In this document: positions 24,440 to 41,998 of the stretch, piece by piece
Layout: every line of letters starts with the position of its first letter
Position numbering within the stretch: the first letter of the stretch is position 1
DNA from: a virus
Strand: one strand, 5' to 3'
Virus record (IMG/VR): IMGVR_UViG_3300044821_000052
Coordinates: 1-55,891 of that record
Length of the DNA: 55,891 nt
Position numbers and translations under genes: made by a program
Notes under the pieces: generated by a model
What the model saw: the letters and a program-made list of their open reading frames with translations, nothing else
Told to the model about the DNA's origin: nothing
The model's database searches: none

Positions 24440-24898
24440 TTACGACAGATATGGACCTACGTCGCATTTATCCGCAGTGCAGTGCACATTAGTGTCATCA
24501 AGTGCACGCTTGCATCGTCGGCACTTCGTCGACACGCCATCGTACCCTTTATCAATACGTGTGTAATCAATACGAAGTTTTGACATCAATGTTGTATGCA
24601 TTGCACCTGCAATGAATTCAGGTGTCATGTCTGGAAGTGCAGCGAACCACATATTCGTGATGAACTGCCATGTATCACTGAGTTCACAGACGAATGCAGC
24701 AGCACCAAATTGAGCATCACCAGCTGCCCATGACTTCCAAGATACTTCACTAAGTGCTTCACCAAGTTCTTGCACTGCAGCGATGTACATCTCTTTCACG
24801 TATGCAATGCGATCTCTATCATTCATTGCCGTGAAATCATGGCCTAGTTTGTCTTGGAATTGACGTTGTGCCTCAACCATTTCAGCAAGACGATCCAT
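24440..24898 (-). CDS. MazG/dUTPase-like nucleotide pyrophosphohydrolase with zinc knuckle
   Basis: 152 residues. The helical core fits the all-alpha NTP pyrophosphohydrolase superfamily: a Glu-rich EMYIAAVQELGEALSEV helix, the WKSW turn and CELSDTWQFITNMW with the second acidic site. These enzymes hydrolyse dNTPs to dNMPs; phage members include dCTPase, dUTPase and dATP/dGTP pyrophosphohydrolases. The C-terminus carries CRRC and CTADKC, a probable zinc knuckle. In this genome it could remove a normal dNTP to favour a modified one (see the ThyA-family gene); substrate cannot be read from sequence. Confidence 0.65.
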   Translation of the reverse strand: MDRLAEMVEAQRQFQDKLGHDFTAMNDRDRIAYVKEMYIAAVQELGEALSEVSWKSWAAGDAQFGAAAFVCELSDTWQFITNMWFAALPDMTPEFIAGAMHTTLMSKLRIDYTRIDKGYDGVSTKCRRCKRALDDTNVHCTADKCDVGPYLS

Positions 24899-24945
24899 TG
24901 CATTCCAATCAAGTCAAATATCTCATTTAATAGATTTCATAACAG

Positions 24946-24989
24946 TAGAGGACGGAGCAGGAAGGGGAAGTTACCTGCTCCGTCCTCTA
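24946..24989 (-). terminator. 16-bp perfect hairpin after SSB-like gene
   Basis: TAGAGGACGGAGCAGG (24946-24961) and CCTGCTCCGTCCTCTA (24974-24989) pair perfectly around a 12-base loop. It lies just after the stop of the SSB-like gene in the leftward direction. The stem is strong but lacks a downstream U tract, so it probably ends or stabilises the recombination-gene message. Confidence 0.65.
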
Positions 24990-25002
24990 GTTCATGTGAC
25001 CC

Positions 25003-25692
25003 CTAGAATGGGTCATCCGGTGGCACTGGGATGTTTCCGGCAATGGCGCTGGTCGGTGTCGTCGGAGCAACAGGCACTGCAGCGACCGGAGTGGTGACGA
25101 CAGGAGCAGGCGTTCCGGTGGCCTGTGGGGCACCAGGGCCAGCCAGAACACCAGGGCCTGTAGAAACTACTGGGGTCGGAATACCAGGTCCTACAGTTGG
25201 TCCTGAGGACCCCGGACCGACCGTGTTCATGCCAGGCAGCATAAGTCCAGCGCCAGGACCAGGTTGTGCAACACCAGCAGCTGGCTCGAATGAATCGAAT
25301 TGGTTGCGGTCTTGACCCTGGTATGGCTTGATCGACACCGTTGCATTGGCCTGCCGACCAACAAGCGCTGCAGCGAGATACGGCATGTCCGAAGCAAGAT
25401 CTCCAGATAGCGTACCGAAGAAGTCCATCGAGATGCCAAATGCCGCGAAGTTGCGGAACCACATCGCAAGAGCGAATGAGTTGTCAGGCACGAACACGAA
25501 GTTGTTCATGAGACTCTTGCCATGCTTGGGCCCACCCTGCACCTCAAGATTGACAACAATCATGTTCGCACCAGTTGATGCCATGCGGTGCTCGGCCTTG
25601 ACGCACTTGAAAAGGTACTTCCCTGGGTCAAGCGGCTTGGTAGCATCATCAGCATTTTGCTTAAGCTGACCCCACGCCACAGATGACGTCAT
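25003..25692 (-). CDS. Single-stranded DNA-binding-like protein
   Basis: 229 residues. The first ~140 form an OB-fold-like domain (LDPGKYLFKCVKAEH, IVVNLEVQGGPKHGKSL, NATVSIKPYQGQDRNQF), similar in style to DUF669/SSB-like phage proteins paired with Sak4 recombinases. The rest is a Pro/Gly/Thr/Val linker ending in an acidic PPDDPF tip, as in bacterial SSB tails that recruit partner proteins. The start overlaps the Sak4-like stop by four bases, supporting a functional pair. Confidence 0.7.
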   Translation of the reverse strand: MTSSVAWGQLKQNADDATKPLDPGKYLFKCVKAEHRMASTGANMIVVNLEVQGGPKHGKSLMNNFVFVPDNSFALAMWFRNFAAFGISMDFFGTLSGDLASDMPYLAAALVGRQANATVSIKPYQGQDRNQFDSFEPAAGVAQPGPGAGLMLPGMNTVGPGSSGPTVGPGIPTPVVSTGPGVLAGPGAPQATGTPAPVVTTPVAAVPVAPTTPTSAIAGNIPVPPDDPF

Positions 25693-26483
25693 GCAGTTAC
25701 TCCCTTAATCTGTGGGGTTTGTGCCCCAATTGATGGTAGCTCACCGAAGATGGCCTGCATCATCTCTGTGATATTCGGATTGCGAACGACATCGCCCAGC
25801 AGACCTTGTACCCGCTCACCACTTTCAAACTGCGGGTGATCACTCATGATGAGAAGCTTCTTGACCTTGACAGTGTTTTGGCCATTGGCATCTGCTTCGT
25901 TGTCTGTGTAGAGATATCCACAGATGTCAACCCAGTAGGGAAGTGCCCTACCGATTCCACCCTGCATCGCTGGGCGCCACTTACCTTCTTTCATCTCCGT
26001 CTCTGCAACGAATCCGACGAACAATGTCGGCAGACCAGGGATGAGGACCAGGTCACGCATCTTGCGGATCCAGTCGTCCATCTTGACGAGCAGATCGCCC
26101 CAGTCTTGAATCCGCATCTGATCCATGCCGCGGAGGCTGGCCTTCAGCTTACGCTGGGCTTCAGTCACTGAGTCAACAATGACAGAAATGAATGAATGCT
26201 GCGCCTGAGTCAGCCACATGTATATCTGCTGAAGTGTTTCCCAGGCACGAACATTCACGACACAGATATCCCAAGTACCATCGTACACAGGAGGTGGTCC
26301 TGATGCTGGGTCCCATGAGACCTTGCGTACTGGCGCACCCTTGAACCCAGCGGTACGAATGAAGCGCCAAGATCCTTCCACGTCAATAACAAGGATCGGT
26401 ACTGGTGCAGTGCTGAAGAGCGTCGACTTACCTGTCTTGCTGGGTGCATGTATCAGTGTCGACAGCGTTGACCGTTCAATCAT
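25689..26483 (-). CDS. Sak4-like RecA-fold ATPase
   Basis: 264 residues. Walker A is APSKTGKST (about 13-21); ILVIDVEGSWRFI follows, and SVIVDSVTEAQRK carries the Walker B-like Asp. This is the Sak4/AAA_24 phage group, a RecA-core single-strand annealing or recombination ATPase acting with an SSB. Neighbours (SSB-like protein, RecB-like nuclease, SNF2 helicase, RuvC-like enzyme) make a complete recombination module. Length is normal for the family. Confidence 0.85.
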   Translation of the reverse strand: MIERSTLSTLIHAPSKTGKSTLFSTAPVPILVIDVEGSWRFIRTAGFKGAPVRKVSWDPASGPPPVYDGTWDICVVNVRAWETLQQIYMWLTQAQHSFISVIVDSVTEAQRKLKASLRGMDQMRIQDWGDLLVKMDDWIRKMRDLVLIPGLPTLFVGFVAETEMKEGKWRPAMQGGIGRALPYWVDICGYLYTDNEADANGQNTVKVKKLLIMSDHPQFESGERVQGLLGDVVRNPNITEMMQAIFGELPSIGAQTPQIKGVTA

Positions 26484-26491
26484 GTGTCCTC

Positions 26492-27985
26492 TTAAATCTC
26501 ATTCATCTCAGGGCTGTTGTAGTACGACAGCGGATCACTCTTGACGAAGAACTGTTTCAACATATCTTCAACGCGTGATCCATCATCAAACATGGAACAC
26601 ACTGAGAAGAATGCACACTTCCACCGACAATCACGCGTCGGATTTGGATATGCCACATCAAAGTGCTCAACACCTTGATCCAACGAATTTTCTATGTCAA
26701 TGATATCAGCAACAGTCGCGATAACACGACGCTTGTAGTTATCAAGAACATGTTGGTTATGCTGCACTTCAACACGGTCGTAGAACGGCGGCTTAGCGGT
26801 ACCAGTCCGCTTAACCTTACGAATCATGTTGTAGAGCGCACCATCACAACGCTCTTCGCCCTCATTAGTGCTGAGGAACTCAAGCAGAAGATAGTGGATC
26901 ATTTGTTCGTCAATGGGCAAGATCTGTCGCACAGTGGTGAATTCAACAAGTGTCTTGTGGTCAATGAACAACCGCACACCATCACGCCGACGTTTGACAC
27001 GAACGTCTAGCTTGCCGATGAGCCTGAATCCTTGGTACGAATTCAATGCTGAAATTGTATCACCGATGTCTGCTGTGATGTCGACCTCGACATACTGCTC
27101 TGAAGCAATGACATCAAACTCACTATCACCGCCAGTCTCAGTAATCCATTCAACATAACCTGAGATCATTGCACGTTCGAGATTGGCCTCGTCATTGAAC
27201 TTCTTCTCGAATGTTGCAAGACGTTCTGGCTCACTGGCAAGTGAGTTTGATAGTGCAGTCCAGTCCTGGACAATCAACATTTCCAATGCAGTCCGCGGGT
27301 CAGTTCGTGGCAGACCTTGCGGCACATAGAACAGCTGCAGCGCACGATGGATCCTGTTACCAATGGCAAGTGCACCAGTTGGTGATTCGAACTTCGGCTT
27401 CAGCTGGCGGTACCAACCCAACCACCACTTACGACGGCAATCCTTGAACGTCCGAAGTTCACTGTTTGAGAAGAGCCGATATCCGAGTGAACGGTCAGGT
27501 CCAGTCAGCAATCCACGTTCTAGATCATGGTCTGAGACGGCACCAGCGACCGTAGACAGACCATCCCAGTCAACACTACTAACCGTGGTTGATGGGACCC
27601 CTGGGGCCGTCTGAGGCGCCGTATTGCCGCTGCCTACCAGCCCTGTCGTCGACGTACTAGCTGTCCCAGCCGACTCCGACGATGCAGGCCCACGTACGCC
27701 GTCGGCGGAACTTCCTGGGCTGGCAGTTCCCATGTCATTGGATGCTGTAGCAGTGGTGGCAGATAATTTACTGTCGCGTCCATGTCCGTCGGCACCTGAG
27801 GTTGATTCAGTTTCTCGTAGTAGTCTTTCGAGGACTGGCTCAAGTATACTACGCTCATTATCCTTGATTACTCCTTTCATCTCAATACGCCAAATAATAC
27901 CTTGCGTGAATTCACTTGCTTCTGCAATTTCACGACGTGACATACCACGTGAACGCAGTGTGCTGATGTCTTCTTGTGCGCTCAT
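26492..27985 (-). CDS. HTH plus RecB/Cas4-like PD-(D/E)XK nuclease
   Basis: 497 residues from ATG 27985 (ATGA overlap with the helicase stop). Residues 1-40 hold a helix-turn-helix (RGMSRREIAEASEFTQGIIW). A Ser/Thr/Gly-rich linker (about 60-150) follows. The nuclease domain starts FSNSELRTFKDCRRKWWLGW and GNRIHRALQLFY and has the catalytic LFIDHKTL (D342, K344) with QMIHYLLLEF, ending in a CRWKCAFFSVC iron-sulfur-like Cys cluster as in Cas4/AddB relatives. It probably resects or processes DNA ends. The HTH fusion is unusual. Confidence 0.85.
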   Translation of the reverse strand: MSAQEDISTLRSRGMSRREIAEASEFTQGIIWRIEMKGVIKDNERSILEPVLERLLRETESTSGADGHGRDSKLSATTATASNDMGTASPGSSADGVRGPASSESAGTASTSTTGLVGSGNTAPQTAPGVPSTTVSSVDWDGLSTVAGAVSDHDLERGLLTGPDRSLGYRLFSNSELRTFKDCRRKWWLGWYRQLKPKFESPTGALAIGNRIHRALQLFYVPQGLPRTDPRTALEMLIVQDWTALSNSLASEPERLATFEKKFNDEANLERAMISGYVEWITETGGDSEFDVIASEQYVEVDITADIGDTISALNSYQGFRLIGKLDVRVKRRRDGVRLFIDHKTLVEFTTVRQILPIDEQMIHYLLLEFLSTNEGEERCDGALYNMIRKVKRTGTAKPPFYDRVEVQHNQHVLDNYKRRVIATVADIIDIENSLDQGVEHFDVAYPNPTRDCRWKCAFFSVCSMFDDGSRVEDMLKQFFVKSDPLSYYNSPEMNEI

Positions 27986-29862
27986 GCTCGTCCTAGATTC
28001 GCTTGCATCAGTTTTGTCCATTCATGATCTAGGTCACCAGTTGAGACACCAGCGGAGATTAGTGTTGCACGATCTCGAGTGATCTCCTCAAGACGTGTCA
28101 TCTTGTCCATCAGACGCGGAATCTGCGCAGATGCTTCTATCGTGTTGTCAGTTACGACATCAATGATCGTGACAGAGTCATGCCGCTCACTTCCAATGCG
28201 GTGAATACGGTCTTCACCTTGGTAGTTGTCAATCAGCGACCATGATCGCTGCAAACACACCATCGTGTCTGCAGCTTGCATGTTTAACCCAGTGCCACCA
28301 GCTTTGAGCGTGAATAGCATGACCCTGTTGGTGCCATCTTGAAAACGTGCAAGTTGATGATCACGTTCGAACTGGGTAAGTCCGCCTACGATCATTGAAT
28401 GCTTGATACCTATCTTATCAAGGCGTGCTGACGCAAGCATGATGAGTTGGCGAGACTCAGCAGATACAGCAACTTGCCGTCCCTCTGGAAGTAGCTCTTC
28501 CAGGATAAGCATCAATTCATCGATCTTTGGTGATGGCTCACGCAGCCACACCTTCAGCTTCTCACGACCAAATTCGTCATATTCGCCAGTGTGCTCGATC
28601 TCGCAGTATGACGATGCAAGTTGGAGCAGCCGTATCTGCGCAACCAAGTCATTAGGTGCGACAAGAAGTGACCCATCATCCAGCTGGGTGAGAAGGCTGG
28701 ACTCAACTTCCTTGTATGCCTTCGCTTGCTTCGGTGACATTGACACAGTACGAATAACTCGAACTTTAGGCGGCAGTTGCGGAAGCACGAGTGCCTTTGG
28801 CATGCGACGATACCTCGGATCAAGAATTGAGAAGAACTCATCTCGACTTGCCGGATTGATCCCGACTACCGTGGAACCACCATCGTTAGTCCAGCCCATA
28901 AGGCAATAACGATCAACATACTGACCCTTAGATGGATATTCAGTTGGCGAAACGAAATGCATAATAGACCATAGGTCAGATGGGTCATTAGCGACTGGCG
29001 TTCCTGTTGCTGCCCAGCGGCGTTGCACCGAGTCTTGGTGGCTGACAGCCCATACTGCGCGGGTTTGTTTCGATGATGGATCCTTAATACGATGCGCTTC
29101 ATCGAGAATCACCGTTCTGAACGGAATGTCATTCAATTCCTTGTGGTGCACTTCACATCGTGAAGCACTCAACCCAGGGGCACCATGCTTCTTGTCACAG
29201 TCACGACAACGCGCAAGTCGCACTGAGCCATATGGTGCCAGTCGTGAATGCAGTCGCACTGCCTCGATATTGATGATGACAAGTGCATTTGGTGCGAGTG
29301 CTGCTGGCCCAGTCAGCAAGCGACGCTTGATTGCTGCGGATCCACCAATGACGACTGGCGTGACTTCAGGAAGCCAACGTGCTGCAGCTTCTGCCCACTG
29401 AGACTTGACGCCATTCGGGCAGATCACAAGCGCAGGAAATTGTTCATGTCTGAGCGCTCGCAGTAGTTGCACTGTCTTACCAGTGCCCATGTCATCACCC
29501 AGCAGTGCATTACCGGCGATATTGAGAAAGTCCACGCCAACATGCTGAAATGGGTACAGACCATCTAGATCTGCCGCTGGGTCAAGTGGCTCAGTCATCA
29601 TCCTGAGATTTAGCGCAGGCATAATCCGATCATTGCGATCGTTCCACGCCCAGGCTCGCAGTGCATCACCAATAACGAGACTTTTACCGAAGACACCACG
29701 CAAGATGCGACACGTTGCCCATGAGACCGGGAAGTGCCAAACACGAAGATCTGCATGCCAGCGCTTGCCTGGCACTGTCTTGATCAGTTCCTTCTCAGTC
29801 CATGCCGTTGCAACGGTTAGCCGCTGGGTGCCATCGACTGAAGAGATGTCAGCGTATGCCAT
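27982..29862 (-). CDS. SNF2-family DEAH helicase
   Basis: 626 residues from ATG 29862, which overlaps the 67-residue gene by 14 bases. Superfamily 2 motifs are in order: YPFQHVGVDFLN (Q-like), DDMGTGKTVQLL (motif I), VILDEAH (II), WAATGTPVAND (III), VGGLTQFERDHQLARF, TLKAGGTGLN (V) and QGEDRIHRIGS (VI, the SNF2 type). A Cys insert (CRDCDKKHGAPGLSASRC) forms a zinc site. It likely remodels replication or recombination intermediates; it is coupled to the nuclease gene. Confidence 0.92.
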   Translation of the reverse strand: MAYADISSVDGTQRLTVATAWTEKELIKTVPGKRWHADLRVWHFPVSWATCRILRGVFGKSLVIGDALRAWAWNDRNDRIMPALNLRMMTEPLDPAADLDGLYPFQHVGVDFLNIAGNALLGDDMGTGKTVQLLRALRHEQFPALVICPNGVKSQWAEAAARWLPEVTPVVIGGSAAIKRRLLTGPAALAPNALVIINIEAVRLHSRLAPYGSVRLARCRDCDKKHGAPGLSASRCEVHHKELNDIPFRTVILDEAHRIKDPSSKQTRAVWAVSHQDSVQRRWAATGTPVANDPSDLWSIMHFVSPTEYPSKGQYVDRYCLMGWTNDGGSTVVGINPASRDEFFSILDPRYRRMPKALVLPQLPPKVRVIRTVSMSPKQAKAYKEVESSLLTQLDDGSLLVAPNDLVAQIRLLQLASSYCEIEHTGEYDEFGREKLKVWLREPSPKIDELMLILEELLPEGRQVAVSAESRQLIMLASARLDKIGIKHSMIVGGLTQFERDHQLARFQDGTNRVMLFTLKAGGTGLNMQAADTMVCLQRSWSLIDNYQGEDRIHRIGSERHDSVTIIDVVTDNTIEASAQIPRLMDKMTRLEEITRDRATLISAGVSTGDLDHEWTKLMQANLGRA

Positions 29863-30052
29863 TAGCAGCAAATTCTTTAGCGACACGCGACAGGTTCTTG
29901 AGACGAACTGGCCAGTGGGGACGGCCACCTGGCTGGCGCGGATCGACATCCTGGTACTTAGTACCGTACCCAATACGTGCAGCTTCAGCGACGATCAATC
30001 CACGAATCAACGCACGATCTTTGTCACTTAGTACTACAACATGCACTTTCAT
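29849..30052 (-). CDS. Small basic protein, unknown
   Basis: 67 residues, with a VHVVVLSDKDRALIRGLIV strand-helix opening and a basic GGRPHWPVRLKNLSRVAKEF tail. AACGAGATAAAGGAGAC precedes the ATG, so it is surely translated. It may be a replication accessory given its place between RuvC-like and SNF2 genes. No family recognised. Confidence 0.65.
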   Translation of the reverse strand: MKVHVVVLSDKDRALIRGLIVAEAARIGYGTKYQDVDPRQPGGRPHWPVRLKNLSRVAKEFAANGIR

Positions 30053-30082
30053 GTCTCCTTTATCTCGTTTGTTTGACTAAGA

Positions 30083-30541
30083 CTATTCTACTACTCTCAA
30101 AAGTTCTGCGACGACGCTGGGTCGAAACGTCAGCAACGTCACAAGGACATGCCGTGCAGCATCGTTGGCATGTCCATGCTTTGGTGTATACAGACTGATT
30201 CGTCGCAATGTGTCATTCTTGAATCGTGCGGCTGTCGATGCTGATTGTATATCAACAGTGACCTTGTACTTTACACCAAGACTTTGCACACTGCCGATGA
30301 TCTGACTAGCTGCAGGTTGACGAGACTTCTTATGCGTGTTGGCTAAGATCGCATAACGTTGTATGCCAATGAATGTCTCATATCGGCTAAAATCACGTTG
30401 CTTGAGCAAGCCCTCAACAAATGGCTCAACATCAACCTGCTCAAGTTCATGTGTCTCGAATGATGTTGCAGTCCACACAGCAATGCCTGTCATCTTACCA
30501 GGATCAATACCAATGACACATAGGATCTTATGTTGCGTCAA
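30083..30541 (-). CDS. RuvC-like Holliday junction resolvase
   Basis: 152 residues from TTG 30541 (GGAAGAG upstream); an ORF reaching 30622 would overlap the polymerase gene heavily in sense. RNase H-fold signs are CVIGIDPGKMTGIAVW (first catalytic Asp), FIGIQRY, and the C-terminal KHGHANDAARHVLV with the last acidic site. Phage RuvC-like enzymes cut branched DNA before packaging. The first ~13 bases overlap the 3' end of the polymerase gene. Confidence 0.8.
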   Translation of the reverse strand: MTQHKILCVIGIDPGKMTGIAVWTATSFETHELEQVDVEPFVEGLLKQRDFSRYETFIGIQRYAILANTHKKSRQPAASQIIGSVQSLGVKYKVTVDIQSASTAARFKNDTLRRISLYTPKHGHANDAARHVLVTLLTFRPSVVAELLRVVE

Positions 30542-32348
30542 ACTTCCACTCTTCCTTTGCGCCCCAGCGCTGGCCGTATGACATGGACGCAGTAATCGGC
30601 ACGAGATATGTGGTGAGATCATTCATGACGCTGTGAATTGTCTGCACTGCAGCATCAAGATGCTCATTGGGTATATCAAGCACGATCTCATCATGCACAG
30701 GCATCATCATATACGGTCCTAGCCCAGCAGCATCAAGTTCAAGTAGCTTAGACTTGAAGATCTCAGCAGCAGAGCCCTGGATGAGATAATTGATCAATGC
30801 GTAGATCTTGTTGGTATCTGCAACGTGATGGCGACCAGTTACGGGGCTTGGAAAGTACGGAACACCCGTTTCTCGCTGGGCATTCCACGCGAATGATTCG
30901 ACCTGCTTAGTAAACCGCTTGGTTCCAGAATATAGTTGATTCCATCTGGCCTTGATGACAGATGCTTGCTCGGTGGGGATGCCTGCAGTTTCAGCGAACT
31001 TCGCAACACCTGCACCGTAGATTTCTGAGTAGCCGGCATTCTTGGTGATCTGACGGCGAGGGTCACCCTTAACAATACTTGAATCATCAAAGATTTGACG
31101 TGCAAGGTCAACAAAGAAGTCACCACCAGATGCATGTGCATTGTTGAATGCAGCGACCAACCCAGGGTCACGTGAAATGTGCGCAAGCAGACGCATTTCA
31201 ATCTGATCAAAATCACACATCAGCATGGTGTGCCCTGGCCGTGCAGTGATGCAGTTACGTACGACTTCCGCAGCCTTGTTCTTTTCACTCTTGCGTGGAA
31301 GCGTCTGAAACCCTGGGTCTGTGATGGTCATACGGCCTGTGCGAGTGCCCATAGGGTTAATGTTCGGATGGATCAGATGGTTGCTGTCATGCTCGTTCAG
31401 GAAGTGCTTAAGGTACGTGCTGGTCAGCTTCTGAAGCCGACGACGTTGCAACACAGTCTTTGCCAGTGGATGATCAATACCCTGCAGCACATCACTGTCA
31501 AGTGCAAGCTTGCCACCAGGAGTTTGCTTGCTGAAGTCATAACCTTCAGACTGCAAAATCTCAATAATGGCATCGTTCGACCCAGCGCGACACTGATAGT
31601 TTGTCTTGACCCATGCATCTGCATTCGCAATATATTCAAGGAACTGATTGTACTTCTCGGCAGTGTAGTCGACATCGACATGCGCGCCATATCGCATCAT
31701 GGCAAGCGTGACCCACTGGGTTGACAGTTCAAGCTCATATGACTTAGCAACACCCAGTGATTTGATCAATGGGGCATGGTGGTCATAGAGATGCACGGTC
31801 AACACTGGGTCAAGTGCACCATAGGTCCAGTATGGTTCAAAGTTGACGGGTACAGTGTCCCAACCCCAACCACCATGCTTAATTGCCTTATCAAGCGTGG
31901 TCATTCCTGCTGCAGCGTTCTCATCGATCCATCGTGAGCACTGATTCTTCAATGCCTTAGACACGTTCGGTTCAAGAACGTGACTCATTGTCATTGTGTC
32001 ATGAATGAGATGGATCGGAACTATGACGCCAGCTGCCGCAAGTTTGGGTTGGTCAAATGGTGCATTGTGGAAGACAAATGTGTTGCCATCAGTATCAGAC
32101 CAGTTGTTGGTGATCTGCTTGCACAAACCACGCCAGTCCTCGAATGGAATGGCCCAACCATGCTCATGTCCGCCTACCTGAAATAGACGAATCTTAGCAT
32201 CATGTTCCAACCCAGTGGTTTCAGTGTCAATGCCCATGACACCTTCGAGATCACGTGACCCCATCCATCTCATCAGGTCGCATGCTGCATCGAAGTTGTC
32301 GACCAGATGAAGTTGAAGGGAGTCAGGCAATCCACTACGCTGGGTCAT
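30528..32348 (-). CDS. Family A DNA polymerase with 3'-5' exonuclease
   Basis: 606 residues, T7/Pol I type without a 5' nuclease domain. The exonuclease site is GIDTETTG (D41, E43) with FHNAPFD and YGALDPVLT. The polymerase site has motif A MCDFDQIEMR (D379), motif B R432..K436...Y440...Y444-G445 and motif C VHDE (H552-D553-E554). Tyr at position 440 matches T7 (Tyr526), while E. coli Pol I has Phe762; this residue governs dideoxynucleotide discrimination. It overlaps the deaminase gene by 14 bases. Confidence 0.95.
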   Translation of the reverse strand: MTQRSGLPDSLQLHLVDNFDAACDLMRWMGSRDLEGVMGIDTETTGLEHDAKIRLFQVGGHEHGWAIPFEDWRGLCKQITNNWSDTDGNTFVFHNAPFDQPKLAAAGVIVPIHLIHDTMTMSHVLEPNVSKALKNQCSRWIDENAAAGMTTLDKAIKHGGWGWDTVPVNFEPYWTYGALDPVLTVHLYDHHAPLIKSLGVAKSYELELSTQWVTLAMMRYGAHVDVDYTAEKYNQFLEYIANADAWVKTNYQCRAGSNDAIIEILQSEGYDFSKQTPGGKLALDSDVLQGIDHPLAKTVLQRRRLQKLTSTYLKHFLNEHDSNHLIHPNINPMGTRTGRMTITDPGFQTLPRKSEKNKAAEVVRNCITARPGHTMLMCDFDQIEMRLLAHISRDPGLVAAFNNAHASGGDFFVDLARQIFDDSSIVKGDPRRQITKNAGYSEIYGAGVAKFAETAGIPTEQASVIKARWNQLYSGTKRFTKQVESFAWNAQRETGVPYFPSPVTGRHHVADTNKIYALINYLIQGSAAEIFKSKLLELDAAGLGPYMMMPVHDEIVLDIPNEHLDAAVQTIHSVMNDLTTYLVPITASMSYGQRWGAKEEWKFDAT

Positions 32349-32778
32349 ATGGTACTATGTCCTTCACTATGAGACACTCGATGCCTGCTGCTTGCAAGAC
32401 GGAAAGACCTTCGCTGTTCTGATATGCCGTCGCCGCCACAACATGGTTGATGCCGGCTGTAACGATAAGCATCGCACATACCCTGCACGGAACCATGGTC
32501 GAGTAAAGTACCGAATTTTCGATTGCCACCCCTCGACGTGCAGCCGATACAAGGGCGTTCTGCTCGGCATGTACGGTGCGAAAACAGTGGCCACGGACCA
32601 TCTGGTGGCCCACGACGTCACAGTGCGGAAACCCGGGCGGCGATCCGACATACCCCGTCGCAAGTATCTGGCGGTCGAGAACAAGAATCGCACCTGAGCG
32701 ACCACGATTGCAGGTGGCCCGCTGGGCGACGGCATCCAGCATCTGAATGAAGTATTCATCCCATGTCACCCGTGTCAT
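32335..32778 (-). CDS. Deoxycytidylate deaminase
   Basis: 147 residues. Zinc cytidine deaminase motifs are complete: TVHAEQNAL (H70, E72) and MVPCRVCAM (C98, C101). The N-terminus DEYFIQMLDAVAQRATC and GYVGSPPGFPHC are as in dCMP deaminases. The enzyme makes dUMP from dCMP for thymidine synthesis. In phages with modified cytosine it also helps drain ordinary dCMP. ATGA overlap with the ThyA-family gene. Confidence 0.92.
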   Translation of the reverse strand: MTRVTWDEYFIQMLDAVAQRATCNRGRSGAILVLDRQILATGYVGSPPGFPHCDVVGHQMVRGHCFRTVHAEQNALVSAARRGVAIENSVLYSTMVPCRVCAMLIVTAGINHVVAATAYQNSEGLSVLQAAGIECLIVKDIVPYDPA

Positions 32779-33629
32779 CTGCGCTCATCTCTGAACGGTG
32801 CAAGTTCGTTGAAGTACCACTGTGCACCGACGTATCCCAGTCGCAGATCATCGCATGTCTGATCATAAACAATGTCATGCGCACGCAGTCGCATCTCTGA
32901 CACGAGGTCACCAGGTCGTGCCAGACCTTTCGGCTGGTCTGGTGCGCCCTTTGGCGCACGAAGTTGCGTCAATAGCGATTCGTGCTGCGCATAGAGATGG
33001 AATGACCATGCCGTGTGCCGGTACTTCCCAGTCTTCACACCTAGGATTGTTGCCACGGTATGCTGCAACTGGGTGAACTGGAAGATATCATACGGTGTAC
33101 CCAGCCACACATCGTTCGACCGCATTAAGGTATTCAGTTCCAGAACTGGCTGGCCTTGGTTTACCAGTCGGAATCCCAGTGAAACGGTGCAGGGATAGTC
33201 CCGCTTTGCACCTAGTGCAGAATCCTTCTTCGGATCCCACAACGTGATGACTGCTTGCCGTGTATCTGGGTCACGACGTAACTTGTTGACGACATCGTTC
33301 AACTGATCGCCGATGCGATCACCATAGGCGCCATGGAAGGTTCCGTCGTCCTCCTGGAACGCTCTGAATGCGTCACTGGACCAGACCGTCAGGGCAGGAT
33401 CTCCGAAGCCTCCGATAAGCTGGATGGCTTCTGCTGCGGCGATATGCGAGTTGACTCGACGTCCGCATCCGATAGGTAGAGCGTTATCCGCGGATTTGAA
33501 TACGAGAGTGGTCGGACCAAGGTCCCACGTAGTCTGACCACGAGGAGCACACTGCTGTCCTCTGTCTCGCACAAGTTGCGGCAGCTTCCAGTAATCTTCA
33601 AACCCAGTCCGTAGTTGGATGATCTCCAC
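32775..33629 (-). CDS. ThyA-family enzyme, probable dCMP hydroxymethylase
   Basis: 284 residues from a GTG that overlaps the kinase stop (TAGTG). Thymidylate synthase-fold signature: catalytic Cys147 in RDYPCTVSLGFRL, phosphate-binding RSND (170-173) and SFHLY (H211, Y213). In LMRSNDVWLGTPYDIFQFTQ the position equal to E. coli ThyA Asn177 is Asp181. In the family this Asn reads uracil, while Asp is found in dCMP hydroxymethylases and shifts purified ThyA toward dCMP. So it likely makes 5-hydroxymethyl- or methyl-dCMP, not dTMP. The pairing with dNMP kinase and dCMP deaminase fits. A plain dUMP enzyme remains possible. Confidence 0.75.
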   Translation of the reverse strand: MEIIQLRTGFEDYWKLPQLVRDRGQQCAPRGQTTWDLGPTTLVFKSADNALPIGCGRRVNSHIAAAEAIQLIGGFGDPALTVWSSDAFRAFQEDDGTFHGAYGDRIGDQLNDVVNKLRRDPDTRQAVITLWDPKKDSALGAKRDYPCTVSLGFRLVNQGQPVLELNTLMRSNDVWLGTPYDIFQFTQLQHTVATILGVKTGKYRHTAWSFHLYAQHESLLTQLRAPKGAPDQPKGLARPGDLVSEMRLRAHDIVYDQTCDDLRLGYVGAQWYFNELAPFRDERR

Positions 33630-34180
33630 TAGTCGTGGTCACTCCCCATCGTGCGTCCAATTTCATGCCTACGCGCAATTCGTATGATATTCATGATGTC
33701 AAAGTCATCAACTTGCTTGCTATACCGCAGTACTGGAAGCATCGACTGCCTGATAACAAAGTCGTACCCAGCGATGATCTCACGCAATTGATGTGGTGCA
33801 ATGAGATCATCACCACGTGCTGTCAATCGCGCAATGAGAAGTGGAAGTGGTGGTTCCATATAGATGACAATGGCACCCAGGTTGCATAGGAATGTCTCAA
33901 TGTGCTGAGACACTGCATGTGACCAGCGAGTGTGTCTGCCCAGCACGTTTGGATACACCGCTTCTCCGAGGTGCCAGCGATCACAAATGACAGTCCGCTG
34001 GGTGCCTGGCTGATAGTCTTGAAGTGGTGTTTCATACTCGTCAAATGGATGCTTCGTTGGTGGCCCTGCATGTAGAATGTCAAGCTTCTCATCCGGTGAA
34101 TGCGCTAGAACTGCATCCATAAGACGTTTCACCAGTGTTGACTTGCCAGCGCCGTCAGGTCCTTCGACGATGATGAGCAT
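33629..34180 (-). CDS. Deoxynucleoside monophosphate kinase
   Basis: 183 residues with P-loop GPDGAGKST (7-15), a CDRWHLGEAVYP DR-type nucleobase site and a C-terminal lid with Arg residues (IARLTARGDD). It looks like a thymidylate/dNMP kinase. Beside a probable dCMP hydroxymethylase, a role in phosphorylating the modified dNMP (as T4 gp1 does) is suggested. AGGAGAGGATA precedes the ATG. Confidence 0.8.
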   Translation of the reverse strand: MLIIVEGPDGAGKSTLVKRLMDAVLAHSPDEKLDILHAGPPTKHPFDEYETPLQDYQPGTQRTVICDRWHLGEAVYPNVLGRHTRWSHAVSQHIETFLCNLGAIVIYMEPPLPLLIARLTARGDDLIAPHQLREIIAGYDFVIRQSMLPVLRYSKQVDDFDIMNIIRIARRHEIGRTMGSDHD

Positions 34181-35561: not shown

Positions 35562-35564
35562 TAC

Positions 35565-35602: not shown

Positions 35603-35629
35603 AGATGTGAGATTAATGAGAGGAAACAT

Positions 35630-38131
35630 ATGCCAAATGACGTTCGTTTTGATGTAGCGAAGGATTACATCGAACGTGGTTGGAAGGTGATGCTTCTTGC
35701 TACAGATCGCACTGGCGGCAAGATTCCACCTAAGAATTGTGCACGTTGTAACTTTCGCCAAGGTGCTGAGCGGCATGACATGGAGGCATGTGATTGCTTA
35801 TTGTGTCATGGCTTCCATATGGCAACAGGTGATCTTGACCGCTTCGTACTGATGCTTGCAGCACTGCCACATGGTTCACTTGCTATTCGGACTGGTCAAG
35901 CATCACGCATCTTGGTCATTGATGCTGAGGCACATGGCGACGGTGACGGTGACACTGGTATTGATGTTATCACAGCTTGGGAGGCACACACCCAGCTGAG
36001 CACTGGACTGCCTGAGACATTGCGTGCGCGATCAGTATCTGGTGGATTGCATCTCTATTATGCGCTCCCGCCAAACGTCTACATTACGAGTGGACGAATC
36101 CTGCCGTTTGTTGATGTCAAAGCAGAGTTGGGATATGTCGGCGCGCCAGGTGTTGGTACGCGTGAGTGGTTGAACCCAGGCACTCCAGTTGCAGAACTAC
36201 CAAATGAGATTATTAAGTGGTTGACACGAGGGAAGCGACAAGGATACCGCGGACGTGGTGCTGGTACTGGTGCTGTTGGCGTTGGTGGTAGTGGTGCCAG
36301 TGGGATGTCGCGTCCTGAGGGTTATGACTTTGAGTTGTTCTCACGTGATGGTGCGCCTCGAGGATATCGCGATTACTTCATCAATGACGCGATTTTTCGT
36401 CTTCGCAAGCGAGGTGTGACTGGTCCTGCATTGGAAGAGCAGGCGTTTGAGCATTGGACGCGATTTGACCAGTCAGATGGCGAATTCCCTTGGGAAGACG
36501 TCAAATACAAAGTTGATCGCGTTGAACATGAGGTCATACCAGACGTTGATGCTGCGGAGACGTCAGGATACAGCTCCTGGATTGCGCGCCTAGGTAAACC
36601 TACTAAAAAGGGGTTTTCGGAGCCCAGCGGAGGAATGGGAGCGCCAGAACGGCCCGCTGGGCTGGGATCCGGGCCTGCGTTTGCTAACCAGCCGCCGGCG
36701 TTCGAGGTTGAGCTCACGCCGACTGGTAATGCACATCGATTCGTGAATTTGTTTCGTGAATCAACGCTGTACGTCCCAGGACTTGGTTGGCATGTCTGGC
36801 GTGGGAATGTGTGGCAGTACGACGAATTGAATGATGTCTTGGACATGACACATGAAGTGCTATTGCAACTTCGTCAAGAACAAGCGATGTTCGAGGCATC
36901 AGACGATGACCAAGCAGATCGTATTCGTGCTTGGTATGTCGCTTCATCAAGTGCTGGTGCACGGCAATCAATGTTGGAGCTCGCGGCATCTGACCCTCGT
37001 GTCAAAGTTTCAGCGAATGCACTGGACGCAGATCCGTGGACGTTAGTCGTCAAAAATGGAACAATTGATCTGCGCACGCGCAAGCACCGTGTGTCGGAGC
37101 CATCGGATTTCAACACGCGAGTTGCCAATGTGCTATATGACCCAGCGGCTGAATGCCCTCGCTGGCTGGAGCACATGAAGTTGGTATCTCAGTCAGCAAC
37201 TGGTGAGATTGACTGGTCCTGGATCGCGTTCGTGCAGCGTTGGATGGGTTACACGCTGACTGGGATTGTTGACGCGCAGAAGTTCTTCTTTGGTTTCGGC
37301 GGTGGCAACAATGGCAAGAATGTCATGATCGAAACATTGTTGGAGATCATGGGTGAGTACGGCATTCGTGGATCATCGAAGTTGTTGCAAGGCTCGGGGC
37401 AAGAACATGAAACGGTTATTGCAGACCTTGCTGGAATTCGTATGGCCTTCATCGACGAAACACCCAGTGGTCGGATCAATGAGTCTCGAGTGAAAGAGTT
37501 GACAGGATCATCTAAGGTTCGAGCACGAAAAATTGCGAAAGATTCATTTGAGTTCTCAATGCAGGCCAAGTTGTGGATTGCTGGTAATAACAAGCCGCGG
37601 GTGTCTGACTCATCAGATGGGTTCTGGCGTCGGTTAGACCTTGTGCCATTTGATGCAGTCATCCCAACAGATCAACGGATCACTAACTACATGCAGGTGT
37701 TGTTGGAAGAATCTTCAGGCATTTTGAATTGGTGTCTTGAAGGTCTGGCTGGGTATCTGGAGTTGGGTGGTCTTGGGTCACCACAACGTGTCGTCGATAT
37801 GGGTCAGACATATCGAGAAGATGAGAATGTCTTGGAATTGTTCCTAGCAGACACTTTCGCAACTGATGGTTCAACCCAGTGGTTGCCGAATAGCGTGATT
37901 CATGGAATGTATACGGAGTGGTGTGAGTCACAAGGTGTTAAAGAGATTCGATCAATGATTTCACTTGGTATGGACTTTCAACGTGCTGGATTAGTACGTG
38001 ATCCAGTAACACGTCGAATTAGATGGGTTTGGCAGGGCAAGACTCAAGTAGTACGTGGATGGATTTGCCCAGGGTTATTGAATAACATTTCTGAAATGCT
38101 TCGGTTTGAACGAACTGATGGTGGTAAATAA
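35630..38131 (+). CDS. Primase-polymerase / SF3 helicase
   Basis: 833 residues from ATG 35630 (GAGAGGAAACAT). The N-terminal ~190 residues are a bifunctional primase/polymerase domain: YIERGWKVMLLATDRTGGKIPPKNC, a Cys/His set, RILVIDAEAHGDGDG (acidic pair) and SVSGGLHLYY. A Gly-rich linker (about 205-235) follows. The D5_N/SF3 helicase part has FGGGNNGKNVMIE (Walker A, K563), RMAFIDETPSGR (Walker B) and KLWIAGNNKPRVSD (sensor Asn). It opens and primes the origin. TGTTACA clusters on both sides fit an origin next to its initiator. Confidence 0.92.
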   Translation: MPNDVRFDVAKDYIERGWKVMLLATDRTGGKIPPKNCARCNFRQGAERHDMEACDCLLCHGFHMATGDLDRFVLMLAALPHGSLAIRTGQASRILVIDAEAHGDGDGDTGIDVITAWEAHTQLSTGLPETLRARSVSGGLHLYYALPPNVYITSGRILPFVDVKAELGYVGAPGVGTREWLNPGTPVAELPNEIIKWLTRGKRQGYRGRGAGTGAVGVGGSGASGMSRPEGYDFELFSRDGAPRGYRDYFINDAIFRLRKRGVTGPALEEQAFEHWTRFDQSDGEFPWEDVKYKVDRVEHEVIPDVDAAETSGYSSWIARLGKPTKKGFSEPSGGMGAPERPAGLGSGPAFANQPPAFEVELTPTGNAHRFVNLFRESTLYVPGLGWHVWRGNVWQYDELNDVLDMTHEVLLQLRQEQAMFEASDDDQADRIRAWYVASSSAGARQSMLELAASDPRVKVSANALDADPWTLVVKNGTIDLRTRKHRVSEPSDFNTRVANVLYDPAAECPRWLEHMKLVSQSATGEIDWSWIAFVQRWMGYTLTGIVDAQKFFFGFGGGNNGKNVMIETLLEIMGEYGIRGSSKLLQGSGQEHETVIADLAGIRMAFIDETPSGRINESRVKELTGSSKVRARKIAKDSFEFSMQAKLWIAGNNKPRVSDSSDGFWRRLDLVPFDAVIPTDQRITNYMQVLLEESSGILNWCLEGLAGYLELGGLGSPQRVVDMGQTYREDENVLELFLADTFATDGSTQWLPNSVIHGMYTEWCESQGVKEIRSMISLGMDFQRAGLVRDPVTRRIRWVWQGKTQVVRGWICPGLLNNISEMLRFERTDGGK

Positions 38132-38190
38132 CTTGTGAGTTGTTGGTTGCACAGTGCATTATAACAGCTAGATATAGATGAGAATCTAAG

Positions 38191-38480
38191 ATGTTACAAC
38201 AGGTGTTACAAGATCATAAGCATCCTGACTATAGGAAATAAAGATCATGTAACAACTGTAACACCTGTAACACCTTAATGTCGGTCCGTGCGCACCATGG
38301 CGCGCAGGTATGTGATGCGCACGCTCGCACATGTGCACCCACACACATGCGCTCACACACATCGCACCATGCATGCATTGACGGTGGCAACAAGGCGTTA
38401 CAAGTGTTACGCCGTTTCATGATCTTTATTTCCTAAGGTCAGGGCATGTTTGATCTTGTAACGCTTGTTGAAACGCCTAG
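38191..38480. other. Candidate replication origin (iterons, inverted repeat, alternating tract)
   Basis: The gap 38132-38574 has no gene. It holds many TGTTACA/TGTAACA words: 38192-38199, 38203-38210, three in 38248-38273, two near 38394-38410 and copies near 38457 and 38493. TAGGAAATAAAGATCATG at 38232-38249 has a perfect inverted copy at 38418-38435. Between them lies a CA/GT-rich alternating purine-pyrimidine stretch (about 38288-38380). These are classic origin or partition traits, next to the primase/helicase gene. Confidence 0.6.
38232..38435. repeat. 18-bp perfect inverted repeat pair
   Basis: The arms at 38232-38249 and 38418-38435 are exact reverse complements (TAGGAAATAAAGATCATG), separated by 168 bases. 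TGTTACA sites adjoin both arms in opposite orientation, giving an overall near-symmetrical element. Confidence 0.85.
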
Positions 38481-38574
38481 TGGCGGCTAGATGTTACAAG
38501 CTCCTAGTGTCGACTAGATTATTGCTATTTGCAGTTGATGTGATCACTGAACGTAGTTGAAAGTAGTTGAACGC

Positions 38575-39303
38575 ATGTCTCGAGATGACAAGCGACGCGC
38601 AGACGCGCGTGCCACTGTGGAGAAGCAAGAAAGGGAAAGGGAGGAAAAAAAGAGAAGAGAGGGAGGAAAAGAGGAAGGAAATGACACACGTTTGAGCTGT
38701 GGAACGCCGACGACTGACCGTGAGGGTAAACCCGCTGGGCCATGTCCGCAAAAAGCAGGTGCCCGAACGGATCACGTAGGATTTGGACGCTGTGCTTCGC
38801 ATGGCGGTAACTCGGTGTATGAGACTGCGAGAGGAGCCTGGCTCATGGCACACGCGCTGGGTCGTGAGCTGGATATCAGTCCCTGGGATGCGCTGCTGGG
38901 TACTGTGCGACGAGCGGCAGCCAGATCAGCATGGTGGCATGACCAGCTGGGCCAGTGTGCGGGCGAGAATGAAGACTTCTTGCCAGGTGGACAACACTAC
39001 CCGATCATGCGAGAACTTGAGAAAGCCGATGACTTTCTTGCGAAGACGTCTAACATCGCCATCAAGGCTGGCATCGCAGAGAAGCTAGTACTAGCAACAC
39101 AGGTGCAAGCTACAGAACTCTTCACTGTGATGATGCAAGCGTTGGAGTCAGCTCAACTCAACGAAGAACAAATGACAGCGGTACGTGGTAAATTAAGGAT
39201 CGGATTGCTTGCACTTGAGAGTGGACCTGTGCCGAACGAGATTGAAGGCGAAGCAATCGCTAAGCAAATAGCGAATGTTGATGAAGAAGGTGAATCATCA
39301 TGA
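38575..39303 (+). CDS. Zinc-finger protein, possible small terminase subunit
   Basis: 242 residues from ATG 38575 (an in-frame TTG at 38557 is alternative; no clear Shine-Dalgarno for either). The first 35 residues are highly charged, with a purine-rich Lys/Arg/Glu run. Next is a Cys/His unit (LSCGTPT..PCPQ..GFGRCASHGG), then a helical region ARGAWLMAHALGRELDISPW and DALLGTVRRAAARSAWW, and a helical C-terminus. This looks like a protein group of Streptomyces-type phages often placed as small terminase or DNA-binding protein. Distance to the large terminase is about 4.3 kb. Confidence 0.5.
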   Translation: MSRDDKRRADARATVEKQEREREEKKRREGGKEEGNDTRLSCGTPTTDREGKPAGPCPQKAGARTDHVGFGRCASHGGNSVYETARGAWLMAHALGRELDISPWDALLGTVRRAAARSAWWHDQLGQCAGENEDFLPGGQHYPIMRELEKADDFLAKTSNIAIKAGIAEKLVLATQVQATELFTVMMQALESAQLNEEQMTAVRGKLRIGLLALESGPVPNEIEGEAIAKQIANVDEEGESS

Positions 39304-39623
39304 CAGAGATAGATGAAGCTACGCCTCTGTACACGTACATCTTCACGTTCGGTTACGACCACATGCACCCAGTCACGGGTGAACCACTACGTAACCGATA
39401 CCTTGCGGTCACTGCTGCATCAGGTAATCATGCACGCGCCTTAGTGCTAAATCACTTTGACAACAATTGGTCGTTCCAATACAACTCTGCTAAGGCAGCA
39501 GGCGTCGATCGATTTCTGCTAGTGCTACTGCCGTATGAGGATTGGCCGCCATGCACCGGTACCTGGCGAGTTGTCGACGGTGCAGTCGTTGATGACGCAA
39601 TGATCAACGCAGGAGAGATGTAG
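39300..39623 (+). CDS. Small protein, unknown
   Basis: 107 residues from an ATG overlapping the previous stop by four bases. An alpha/beta protein: LYTYIFTFGYDHMHPVTGEP, then YLAVTAASGNHARALVLNHF and a LLVLLPYEDWPPC strand. A single Cys; no membrane segment. Its translation is coupled to the zinc-finger gene, and the modification cassette begins six bases later. Function unknown. Confidence 0.65.
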   Translation: MTEIDEATPLYTYIFTFGYDHMHPVTGEPLRNRYLAVTAASGNHARALVLNHFDNNWSFQYNSAKAAGVDRFLLVLLPYEDWPPCTGTWRVVDGAVVDDAMINAGEM

Positions 39624-39628
39624 AGACA

Positions 39629-40342
39629 ATGAGTGGCAACATCGTCATCCTTGTTCCTACGCGTAAGCGTGCGCGATCCATCGTTCCATTGGCACGAGCA
39701 TTTGCTAACACTGTCACTGGCCTAATGGGCAGTGTGTGGTTGATGCTATGTGTAGATGGCAACGACAATCATGAATACAAGGATGTATACAACGAGGCAG
39801 TTGAGATTTACCCACACATGATGATAGGTACAGGTCCACGTCGAGGACTCGTCGGTACGCTCAACTATTACTCTGCACGAATGATACGACCAGAGATTCG
39901 TGCCATCGGATATATGGGCGACGATCACCGACCTATGACACAGGGTTGGGACGAACAGGTTCATGCTGCACTGGACGCCATGCAGGGCATGGGAATCGTG
40001 TATGGCGATGATGGCATTCAACACGAGACACTGCCAACTGCATGTGTAATCAGCACTCCCATCCTCATCCAGCTGGGTCACATGGCTCCGCCAGTGTTAC
40101 AGCACATGTACTGTGATAATTACTGGCGTGATCTGGGACTGGGCGCAAACTGTCTCATGTACTTGCCTGATATGAAGATCACACACTTGCATCCCAGTGT
40201 CGGTGCAGCCGACTGGGACGAGTCTTATCTTGAGTCGAATCACCCTGATATATTTGCTGCAGACAAACTGGCATATGAGAAGTACAAGCAGGATTTCTCA
40301 CTTGCTAGTGACATTGCCAAGATTTCAATACAAGGAAGATAA
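39629..40342 (+). CDS. GT-A glycosyltransferase next to base-modification gene
   Basis: 237 residues with VILVPTRKRARSIVPLARAF at the N-terminus, LMLCVDGNDNHEYK, a GYMGDDHRPMTQGWD motif (GDDH as DxD, near 110) and IVYGDDGIQ. This is a GT2-like fold. It is separate from the five-transferase run behind the tail genes and lies nine bases before the aGPT-Pplase/HMUDK-helical-like gene. That neighbourhood suggests transfer of a sugar to a hydroxymethylated base, as T4 transferases do on 5-hmC; this is inference. Confidence 0.7.
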   Translation: MSGNIVILVPTRKRARSIVPLARAFANTVTGLMGSVWLMLCVDGNDNHEYKDVYNEAVEIYPHMMIGTGPRRGLVGTLNYYSARMIRPEIRAIGYMGDDHRPMTQGWDEQVHAALDAMQGMGIVYGDDGIQHETLPTACVISTPILIQLGHMAPPVLQHMYCDNYWRDLGLGANCLMYLPDMKITHLHPSVGAADWDESYLESNHPDIFAADKLAYEKYKQDFSLASDIAKISIQGR

Positions 40343-40350
40343 CGAGACTA

Positions 40351-41322
40351 ATGACACAAATCGTCAACATTGCGCGACGAGAACTGCACACAACTCCAGT
40401 TTTTGATACATATTGGCGATTTGCAGCTGCACGACAGCACATTTACGAATCTCGGCAAGCTGGCTTGCCAGCGCCATGGACTTCTGACCCAATTCTGCTA
40501 AATCATCGATTCACTAACTGCTTTCGTGCTGCAGATCGTGTGAGTCAGTTTCTCATTCGTGATGTGCTCTACACTGGGTCACAAGATCCGAAGGAAGTCG
40601 TCTTCAGATCACTTCTGTTTAGATTGTTCAATCGTGTGTCAACATGGCAATTGCTGACGTCGCATTTTGGCCAATTGACATACAAGAATGCTGACTTTGC
40701 TGCTTATGACGCTGTGTTGTCAAAGGCATTCGCAAATAAGCAACGCTTGTACTCGGCGGCGTACATCATCGCAACACCAGCATTTGGGCAGGAACGTCGA
40801 CACTCCAATCATGTGCAATTGTTGCGTTACATGATGGAAACACGAGTGCATGAACAATTGATGCATGCGACTGGCATGGAACATGCATTTCAGGTGCTAC
40901 TCCAGTATCCGTCTATTGGCAACTTTCTGGCATACCAGTTGCTTCTTGACATCAACTACAGCAATGTCATCGACTTTGATGAGAACGAATTCTCAATGCC
41001 TGGTCCAGGAGCACGTGACGGCATTCGTAAGTGTTTCGGTGCGGTTCCACGTGGCATTGAGGACCAAATACTTCAGTATATGGTTGATACGCAAGATGAG
41101 CATTTTGCCCGGCTGGGTTTGACGTTCAATGGACTAAATGGACGTCGATTGCATCTGACTGACTGCGAAAACTTGTTCTGCGAGACAGACAAATATGCAC
41201 GTATGGCACATCCTGAGATCGCAGGATTGTCAGGGCGTACGCGGATCAAGCAGAAGTACACACCAGACCCGAAGCCATTGCAAGCTTGGTTCCCACCCAA
41301 ATGGCGTATTAATACCATTTGA
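40351..41322 (+). CDS. 5-hmdU DNA kinase helical domain / aGPT-Pplase-like protein
   Basis: 323 residues. The pattern fits the helical family seen in thymidine-hypermodifying phages (HMUDK_hel, alpha-glutamyl/putrescinyl thymine pyrophosphorylase clade): FDTYWRFAAARQHIYESR, PWTSDPILLNHRFTNCFR (42-59) with AADR, LLFRLFNRVSTW, PSIGNFLAYQLLLDINYS, SMPGPGARDGIRKC and LTDCENLFCETDKYAR near the end. The PGPGA helix-hairpin and IGNF part resemble DNA glycosylase-like folds. Known members act on hydroxymethyl-pyrimidine DNA after replication. No P-loop is visible, so it would be the helical, non-kinase clade. Flanked by a glycosyltransferase and a methyltransferase. Assigned by motif memory. Confidence 0.75.
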   Translation: MTQIVNIARRELHTTPVFDTYWRFAAARQHIYESRQAGLPAPWTSDPILLNHRFTNCFRAADRVSQFLIRDVLYTGSQDPKEVVFRSLLFRLFNRVSTWQLLTSHFGQLTYKNADFAAYDAVLSKAFANKQRLYSAAYIIATPAFGQERRHSNHVQLLRYMMETRVHEQLMHATGMEHAFQVLLQYPSIGNFLAYQLLLDINYSNVIDFDENEFSMPGPGARDGIRKCFGAVPRGIEDQILQYMVDTQDEHFARLGLTFNGLNGRRLHLTDCENLFCETDKYARMAHPEIAGLSGRTRIKQKYTPDPKPLQAWFPPKWRINTI

Positions 41323-41347
41323 TAATGATGCAAGGAGATATGAGACA

Positions 41348-41998
41348 ATGCCAGATATCGTCAAGTTGGCACCACAGGAGTCGTGGACGTTTGCACCTTT
41401 GCCTGAGTTCATGCGAGAGCACAGCATTATGCCAAGTGCAGTGGCGCACATTGGCGCGCATCATGGTGAAGAGGTTGACATCTACCATGAGTGCGGGTTC
41501 AAGACCATCTATCTCTACGAACCCGACCCGCGCAATCTCGAAGTCTTACGTTCCCGTGCAGTCAACGATCCCACGGTCAGTATCGTTGCTGCGGCGGTCA
41601 CTACGCGCTCCAAGGGGCCACAGCAGCTTCACCTCGCTGCACGCACGGTATGGAGCGGGCTTAGTCCGCACCCCACTGCAACCGGCGACACCGTCGTCGT
41701 TCCGACAGTTCCGATGTCACATCTGTCGTCACTGGTCAACGTACTAGTGCTAGACACGCAAGGCAGCGAGTACGAATTGCTACGTGCCGCTGACCTGAGC
41801 CTGCTTGACCTGGTCATCGTCGAGACAACACGACGTCGAGGTGACGGTGCTGCCTTCTACGAAGACGCGGTTGCTTACATGGAGGACTGCGACTGGGTGC
41901 CTGCCCAAGAGTGGGTCCACGACGACTCGGGATACACCGACACGGTCTTCATCAAGAACAACCGCCAGAAGTACCTACAGACGAAGGATGCCGCATGA
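41348..41998 (+). CDS. FkbM-like SAM-dependent methyltransferase
   Basis: 216 residues from ATG 41348 (AAGGAG ten bases upstream); the longer frame from 41195 overlaps the previous gene and is not used. Rossmann SAM site: SAVAHIGAHHGEEVDIYHEC, LYEPDPRNLEVL (acidic end of strand 2), then VLVLDTQGSEYELLRAADL (FkbM motif) and LVIVETTRRRG. It is more G+C-rich than its neighbours. Likely O-methylation of a sugar or base adduct made by the two upstream genes. Confidence 0.8.
   Translation: MPDIVKLAPQESWTFAPLPEFMREHSIMPSAVAHIGAHHGEEVDIYHECGFKTIYLYEPDPRNLEVLRSRAVNDPTVSIVAAAVTTRSKGPQQLHLAARTVWSGLSPHPTATGDTVVVPTVPMSHLSSLVNVLVLDTQGSEYELLRAADLSLLDLVIVETTRRRGDGAAFYEDAVAYMEDCDWVPAQEWVHDDSGYTDTVFIKNNRQKYLQTKDAA

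Follow-up and report, generated by a model that had tools for sequence, protein, structure and literature searches.

The 55,891-base IMG/VR virus record IMGVR_UViG_3300044821_000052, called the window below, encodes a predicted DNA hypermodification system that an initial annotation had likened to the 5-hydroxymethylcytosine (hmC) pathway of phage T4, with precursor genes in one arm and a finishing cassette in the other. We class this system as an unusual, as yet unproven form of phage pyrimidine hypermodification that includes a base-handling protein of bacterial origin, rather than as a plain copy of the T4 pathway. The protein in question is a stand-alone member of the HMUDK_hel family that was taken from an actinobacterial gene cluster, and its gene now lies in an operon with those for a glycosyltransferase (GT) and an FkbM-type methyltransferase (Table 1). 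In the model that we favor, although only tentatively and at a little under an even chance, the genome contains hmC and the captured HMUDK_hel protein presents this base to the neighboring GT.

Cytosine is implicated by the ThyA-superfamily enzyme, which is the sole copy in the window. Alignment with Escherichia coli ThyA, T4 gp42 and phage homologues places C146, T147 and D177 (E. coli ThyA numbering) in the window protein. T4 gp42 also carries T147 together with an aspartate, Asp179, which MAFFT sets one column off, and in the same alignment N147/N177 marks the ThyA of thymidine-hypermodified M6, as well as those of LuckyBarnes, Montesquieu and Vibrio K471. An Asn-to-Asp change at residue 177 moves the substrate from dUMP to dCMP, and positions 147 and 177 are reported as the best markers by which the ThyA homologues on contigs of cytosine-modified phages can be told from the rest (PMC8670742). 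The structures closest in sequence to the window enzyme are those of the CMP hydroxymethylase MilA and of Lactobacillus casei thymidylate synthase (TS) N229D, a dCMP-type mutant (1njc/1njd). To judge by these signatures, the enzyme, an Asp-type ThyA, likely hydroxymethylates dCMP.

Several further precursor functions can be predicted. As the initial annotation had claimed, a ThyA homologue (PF00303), a nucleotide kinase, a dCMP deaminase (PF00383) and a MazG-like pyrophosphohydrolase are all encoded leftward, but not in a single block: the kinase, ThyA and deaminase genes adjoin, and the pyrophosphohydrolase gene lies about 7.4 kb away, behind replication genes. The suggestion that the last enzyme might be a dCTPase gained support, in that its family aligns to the dCTPase T4 gp56 (hhalign 97.9%) with ExxDxxHFxxN and RQxxGY motifs common at the family level, and we therefore regard it as a candidate gp56-family dCTPase. 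Counterparts of most T4 steps had been proposed, and this holds for the precursor set but not beyond it. T4 gp1 belongs to a different P-loop family and is not homologous to the window kinase, which is dTMP-kinase-like; no T4 beta-GT homologue was found in the window by phmmer and no AGT or BGT Pfam match among the GTs scanned. Conversely, HMUDK_hel and FkbM are additions relative to T4.

The gene order kinase–ThyA–PolA, always with an Asp-type ThyA, is kept in at least five relatives, G053, G054, G055, G056 and G058 (loci L092, L094, L095, L091 and L096), and in Actinomycetia phage DSL-LC01; orthologues of the window kinase adjoin an Asp-type ThyA in L091-L096 and DSL-LC01, and a kinase and a ThyA homologue are likewise present in L288. 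DSL-LC01 and G053-G058 also share with the window the dCMP deaminase, the order of the helicase, nuclease and RecA-like genes, and the MazG-like enzyme, but they lack HMUDK_hel. The T147/D177 signature, the MilA and TS N229D relatives, the gp56-like enzyme and this conserved module therefore support an hmC precursor pathway. The kinase of relatives has an extra C-terminal domain of about 130 amino acids (L111:6387-7352, L122:9387-10346, L102:11009-12004) that the window kinase has lost; it appears UDG-like by eye and has no Pfam hit. Near the ThyA module of DSL-LC01 (L102:19912-22048) lie genes for a GT and a UDP-galactopyranose mutase, hinting at galactofuranosyl-hmC in that phage.

In the pathway we envisage, hmC very probably replaces part or all of the cytosine at the nucleotide level. 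Signatures, homology and conserved gene order suggest that the Asp-type ThyA makes hydroxymethyl-dCMP (hm-dCMP), that the kinase begins activation of hm-dCMP, that the gp56-like enzyme clears dCTP and dUTP, and that the deaminase supplies dUMP/dTMP. HMUDK_hel would then probably flip out and hold a hydroxymethyl-pyrimidine. Presentation of hmC in DNA to the neighboring GT is the most economical, albeit unproven, mechanism by which a sugar might be added to this base, and FkbM may O-methylate the sugar.

HMUDK_hel itself is assigned with ease. The window protein covers positions 1-280 of the 281-position profile and keeps all 13 invariant columns of a 69-member alignment, including R28, R59, D62, Q196, D200, N274, C277, E278 and K281. 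In its AlphaFold2 model (pLDDT 96.3), the top match in a viral model library is the SP10 5-hmdU DNA kinase (TM-score 0.82 over its helical half). Foldseek against the PDB ranks first the PaMx11-type 5-PmdU glycinyltransferase of the ADDT family (8z2n/8z2m, prob 0.96, E 0.015), followed by HhH-GPD DNA glycosylases (EndoIII/OGG) with weak scores. A fold like that of an amino-acid:DNA transferase, and weakly like those of DNA glycosylases, suggests base flipping; by its predicted fold, HMUDK_hel would be a DNA-glycosylase/ADDT-like domain and no kinase. The kinase activity of the HMUDK family should belong to the separate P-loop domain PF18748.

The company that HMUDK_hel keeps is informative as well. 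We compared 80 HMUDK_hel loci, taken from an IMG/VR scan with the alignment, with the 80 best IMG/VR loci of the window GT, an unrelated phage gene, using similar flanks. A ThyA gene lies within about 10 kb at 52 of the 80 HMUDK_hel loci and at none of the 80 GT loci (Fisher p=1e-21). The co-occurrence proposed by the initial annotation thus exists for HMUDK_hel and ThyA in general, but not for the GT or FkbM, and it is rare for Asp-type ThyA: the 52 partners comprise 41 with N147/N177, seven with T147/N177 and only four with T147/D177 (L041, L069, L078, L081). No locus other than the window was seen to combine Asp-type ThyA, HMUDK_hel, this GT and FkbM. Asp-type partners nevertheless occur in three separate HMUDK_hel lineages (the window; Kojivirus SirVictor with L069, L078 and L081; and L041), and parsimony requires a total of six changes of ThyA type.

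Partner enzymes may also be exchangeable. Among 44 HMUDK_hel records, PF18748 occurs only with ADDT (5/5; p=2e-4) and TAGT in 10, an apparent exclusivity of TAGT and ADDT not being significant (p=0.41). HMUDK_hel is fused to a GT-B domain (PF00534) at L023:8447-10957, and also in L027, adjoining ThyA and a CTP_transf_like gene; elsewhere it is fused to a thymidylate-kinase-like domain (L011) or to PF18748 (L045). Brevibacterium phage LuckyBarnes, which has no ADDT, carries a ThyA-TAGT-TAGT-HMUDK_hel operon and so resembles the window in its ThyA, GTs and HMUDK_hel, and pelagiphages carry sets of TS, aG/PT-PPlase1 and GT (PMC9599517). The ThyA proteins in these two sets are N147/N177 and their GTs belong to the TAGT family, to which Pfam does not assign the GT of the window. 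The fusions and the TAGT co-occurrence suggest that HMUDK_hel may be a base-presenting module with exchangeable partners.

Microbacterium Kojivirus (SirVictor) shares with the window a T/D-type ThyA alongside HMUDK_hel, but its ThyA is of the T4-like subfamily, and a TAGT is found in the related contig L081. At Kojivirus locus L006:1352-2822 a P-loop kinase gene overlaps HMUDK_hel, making this a candidate 5hmC DNA kinase. In T4-like Aeromonas phage 31, ORF233c (L291:26184-28571) has a diverged HMUDK_hel fold at its C-terminus; the beta-GT likeness of its N-terminus was too weak to use.

The origin of the window HMUDK_hel was traced in a tree with bacterial homologues, for which 513 candidate loci were confirmed and 80 kept. 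The window copy nests within an actinobacterial chromosomal clade (support 100/100), its nearest homologue by identity being that of Mycobacterium sp. ST-F2 (62%). None of the five relatives with the Asp-type ThyA module has HMUDK_hel anywhere in its record, and L288 and L289 lack it in their terminase slot. The gene was thus captured, probably from a host, and its GC content, 0.47, now matches the phage. A conserved bacterial cassette, seen at L249:5742-9929, L262:5645-9930 and about 60 of the 80 bacterial loci (L208-L287) across many phyla, comprises a carrier-protein-like gene, XRE regulator, M78/ImmA peptidase, an uncharacterized protein of about 247 amino acids, HMUDK_hel, MazG_C (PF18722) and ACPS. 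Bacteroidota copies adjoin ParA- and mobilization-like genes.

The claim that GT, HMUDK_hel and FkbM are a finishing cassette that evolved with the precursor genes is thus not supported, either for the captured HMUDK_hel or for the GT, whose family shows no link to hydroxymethylases. Both the base-modification helical protein and the methyltransferase of the initial annotation are real, although the start of FkbM is most likely 41348, behind a good Shine-Dalgarno sequence, and not 41195. That the operon provides the finishing half of an hmC system is possible but unproven. The three genes lie between the terminase genes with tight spacing and good ribosome-binding sites. The GT has a GT-A fold (AlphaFold2 pLDDT 94; Foldseek GT2 matches, E 4e-9), with no Pfam match at E<0.1, and thus none to TAGT (PF20691). 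A single-sequence IMG/VR scan with the GT and a profile search against PDB sequences returned no matches; the same IMG/VR scan with FkbM returned two weak ones. Only operon position suggests DNA as the substrate of the GT and FkbM, because their homologues lack a hydroxymethylase link.

The strongest alternative is accordingly a genome with hmC in which GT, HMUDK_hel and FkbM form an unrelated moron. We regard this as a real possibility, if a doubtful one. On this reading the GT and FkbM would have virion proteins or host glycans as their targets, HMUDK_hel would have been captured as a counter-defense or host-interaction gene, and the tail-arm GTs might or might not glycosylate hmC. Relatives of the GT and FkbM do occur in phages that lack a hydroxymethylase, where they neighbor tail genes and further GTs. 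GT homologues exist in Streptomyces phages (PF00303 is absent from the one record tested), the G058 homologue sits in the tail-arm GT/methyltransferase cluster, and the nearest phage FkbM homologues adjoin a GT near lysin or tail genes, again in Streptomyces phages. The host-derived HMUDK_hel is missing from relatives, and its bacterial homologues lie in a mobile, regulated cassette; aGPT-Pplase, MazG and MazG-C are listed as predicted defense domains (PMC13092281). Against a moron, all invariant HMUDK_hel residues are kept, the family is elsewhere strongly tied to ThyA and sometimes to GTs, and here it stands in a tight operon with a GT.

Several observations weigh against presentation of hmC to the GT. 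The window is a metagenomic contig whose genome is known here from sequence alone, and the GT-HMUDK_hel-FkbM set was seen only in this contig. Neither ThyA nor HMUDK_hel lies within 10 kb of any of the 80 best IMG/VR loci of the GT family, which cluster with other GTs, and FkbM homologues occur in phages that have ThyX and lack PF00303. A homologue of this GT is nevertheless present on L028, L031 and L032, HMUDK_hel contigs that belong to a single clade. The PDB fold match of HMUDK_hel is modest (TM-score about 0.34). Action on hmC would need a changed specificity, because the characterized 5-HMUDK phosphorylates hmU, not hmC, in DNA (PMC6457204). Nor is hmC the sole possible product of the precursor pathway: an N177D-type TS can also make 5-methyl-dCMP, and RB69-type (Mosigvirus) homologues yield 5-hydroxy-dCMP (PMC13390438). 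Liu and Santi (1992, as cited in PMC8670742) reported TS N229D to be a methylase of deoxycytidylate.

Thymidine hypermodification through 5-hydroxymethyluracil (5hmU), as in M6, ViI and SP10, appears improbable. The HMUDK_hel family has so far been tied to this type of modification and is named after a thymine-modification enzyme. ThyA, or ThyA plus dCMP deaminase, would give hm-dUMP, and HMUDK_hel with a kinase would phosphorylate 5hmU in DNA. The adjacent deaminase could in principle act on hm-dCMP. The family, its usual partners and the Asn177 of 48 of its 52 ThyA partners speak for this reading, and the genomes of Pseudomonas M6, Salmonella ViI, SP10 and PhiW-14, like the window, encode both HMUDK_hel and a ThyA homologue. 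The only ThyA of the window, however, is T147/D177 rather than the dUMP type with Asn177, and its HMUDK_hel comes from a different, bacterial branch. Neither PF18748 nor ADDT (PF18724) was found among the window proteins scanned against Pfam, the whole window not having been searched with these two models; TET (TET_JBP), an hmU source, had no match in the window, nor in the control genomes. The window kinase was rejected as the missing HMUDK kinase because its orthologues sit in phages with an Asp-type ThyA and no HMUDK_hel.

More improbable still is that the Asp-type ThyA acts as a dCMP methylase or a 5-hydroxy-dCMP synthase, following the TS N229D and Mosigvirus precedents, and that the DNA is 5-methylcytosine- or 5-hydroxycytosine-derived, since the window enzyme has T147 as in T4 gp42 and no TS-type C-terminal PVAI, the tail of classical TS being what excludes water.

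A broader proposal, which we consider rather unlikely as a whole, is that HMUDK_hel, rather than being bound to 5hmU kinases, is a modular base-flipping adaptor for hydroxymethyl-pyrimidines that pairs with kinases or GTs, and that the bacterial-cassette version acts here on 5hmC, the product being a novel glycosyl-hmC that may be O-methylated. The name HMUDK_hel may hide a general base-presenting module, given the Asp-type ThyA in three lineages, the GT fusion and the glycosylase/transferase-like fold. In that case cytosine modification or sugars may be present in many phages whose genomes carry the label of thymidine hypermodification. Its capture connects phage DNA modification with an uncharacterized, widespread bacterial gene cluster.

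Table 1. Features of the window, with predicted functions and their basis.
Feature	Coordinates	Strand	Basis
Five glycosyltransferases, tail-arm cluster	14084..17652	+	Pfam; synteny; adjoins tail genes, conserved in relatives
dUTPase_2/MazG-superfamily pyrophosphohydrolase, predicted dCTPase/dUTPase (T4 gp56-like)	24440..24898	-	E=1.8e-6
Family A DNA polymerase (PolA)	30528..32348	-	PF00476 5e-61; same operon as ThyA
dCMP deaminase (ComEB-like)	32335..32778	-	PF00383 E=1.7e-21, ComEB 1.7e-32
ThyA-superfamily enzyme, predicted dCMP hydroxymethylase	32775..33629	-	PF00303 E=6.5e-23
P-loop dTMP-kinase-like nucleotide kinase, predicted hm-dCMP/dNMP kinase	33629..34180	-	Thymidylate_kin-like E=2.9e-6
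Putative terminase-small-subunit-like protein	38557..39303	+	Position, homologues in relatives; left border of inserted cassette
GT-A glycosyltransferase, putative (hmC in DNA or other acceptor)	39629..40342	+	PHROG 14945 E=4e-41
Stand-alone HMUDK_hel protein, predicted DNA-base-flipping/recognition protein	40351..41322	+	PF18723 E=1.3e-111
FkbM-type methyltransferase, putative sugar O-methyltransferase	41348..41998	+	PF05050 E=2.3e-9; ORF opens at 41195
Putative terminase large subunit	43587..45140	+	ATPase/nuclease-like sequence, position; right border of cassette

The lysin type and the relatives link this siphophage to Actinomycetota; its replication genes, including those for a helicase, a nuclease and a RecA-like protein, lie in the leftward arm and its late genes rightward. 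A nucleotide search with positions 24,440 to 41,998 gave no match to named phages, and the terminase large subunit is 53-62% identical to its counterparts in five relatives. The several GTs of the initial annotation amount to six in the window, but only one of them falls inside that interval. In G058 the tail-arm GT cluster has two methyltransferases in addition. The window also carries genes for tRNA-Leu(taa) at 21529-21602 (-) and tRNA-Met(cat) at 46773-46847 (+).

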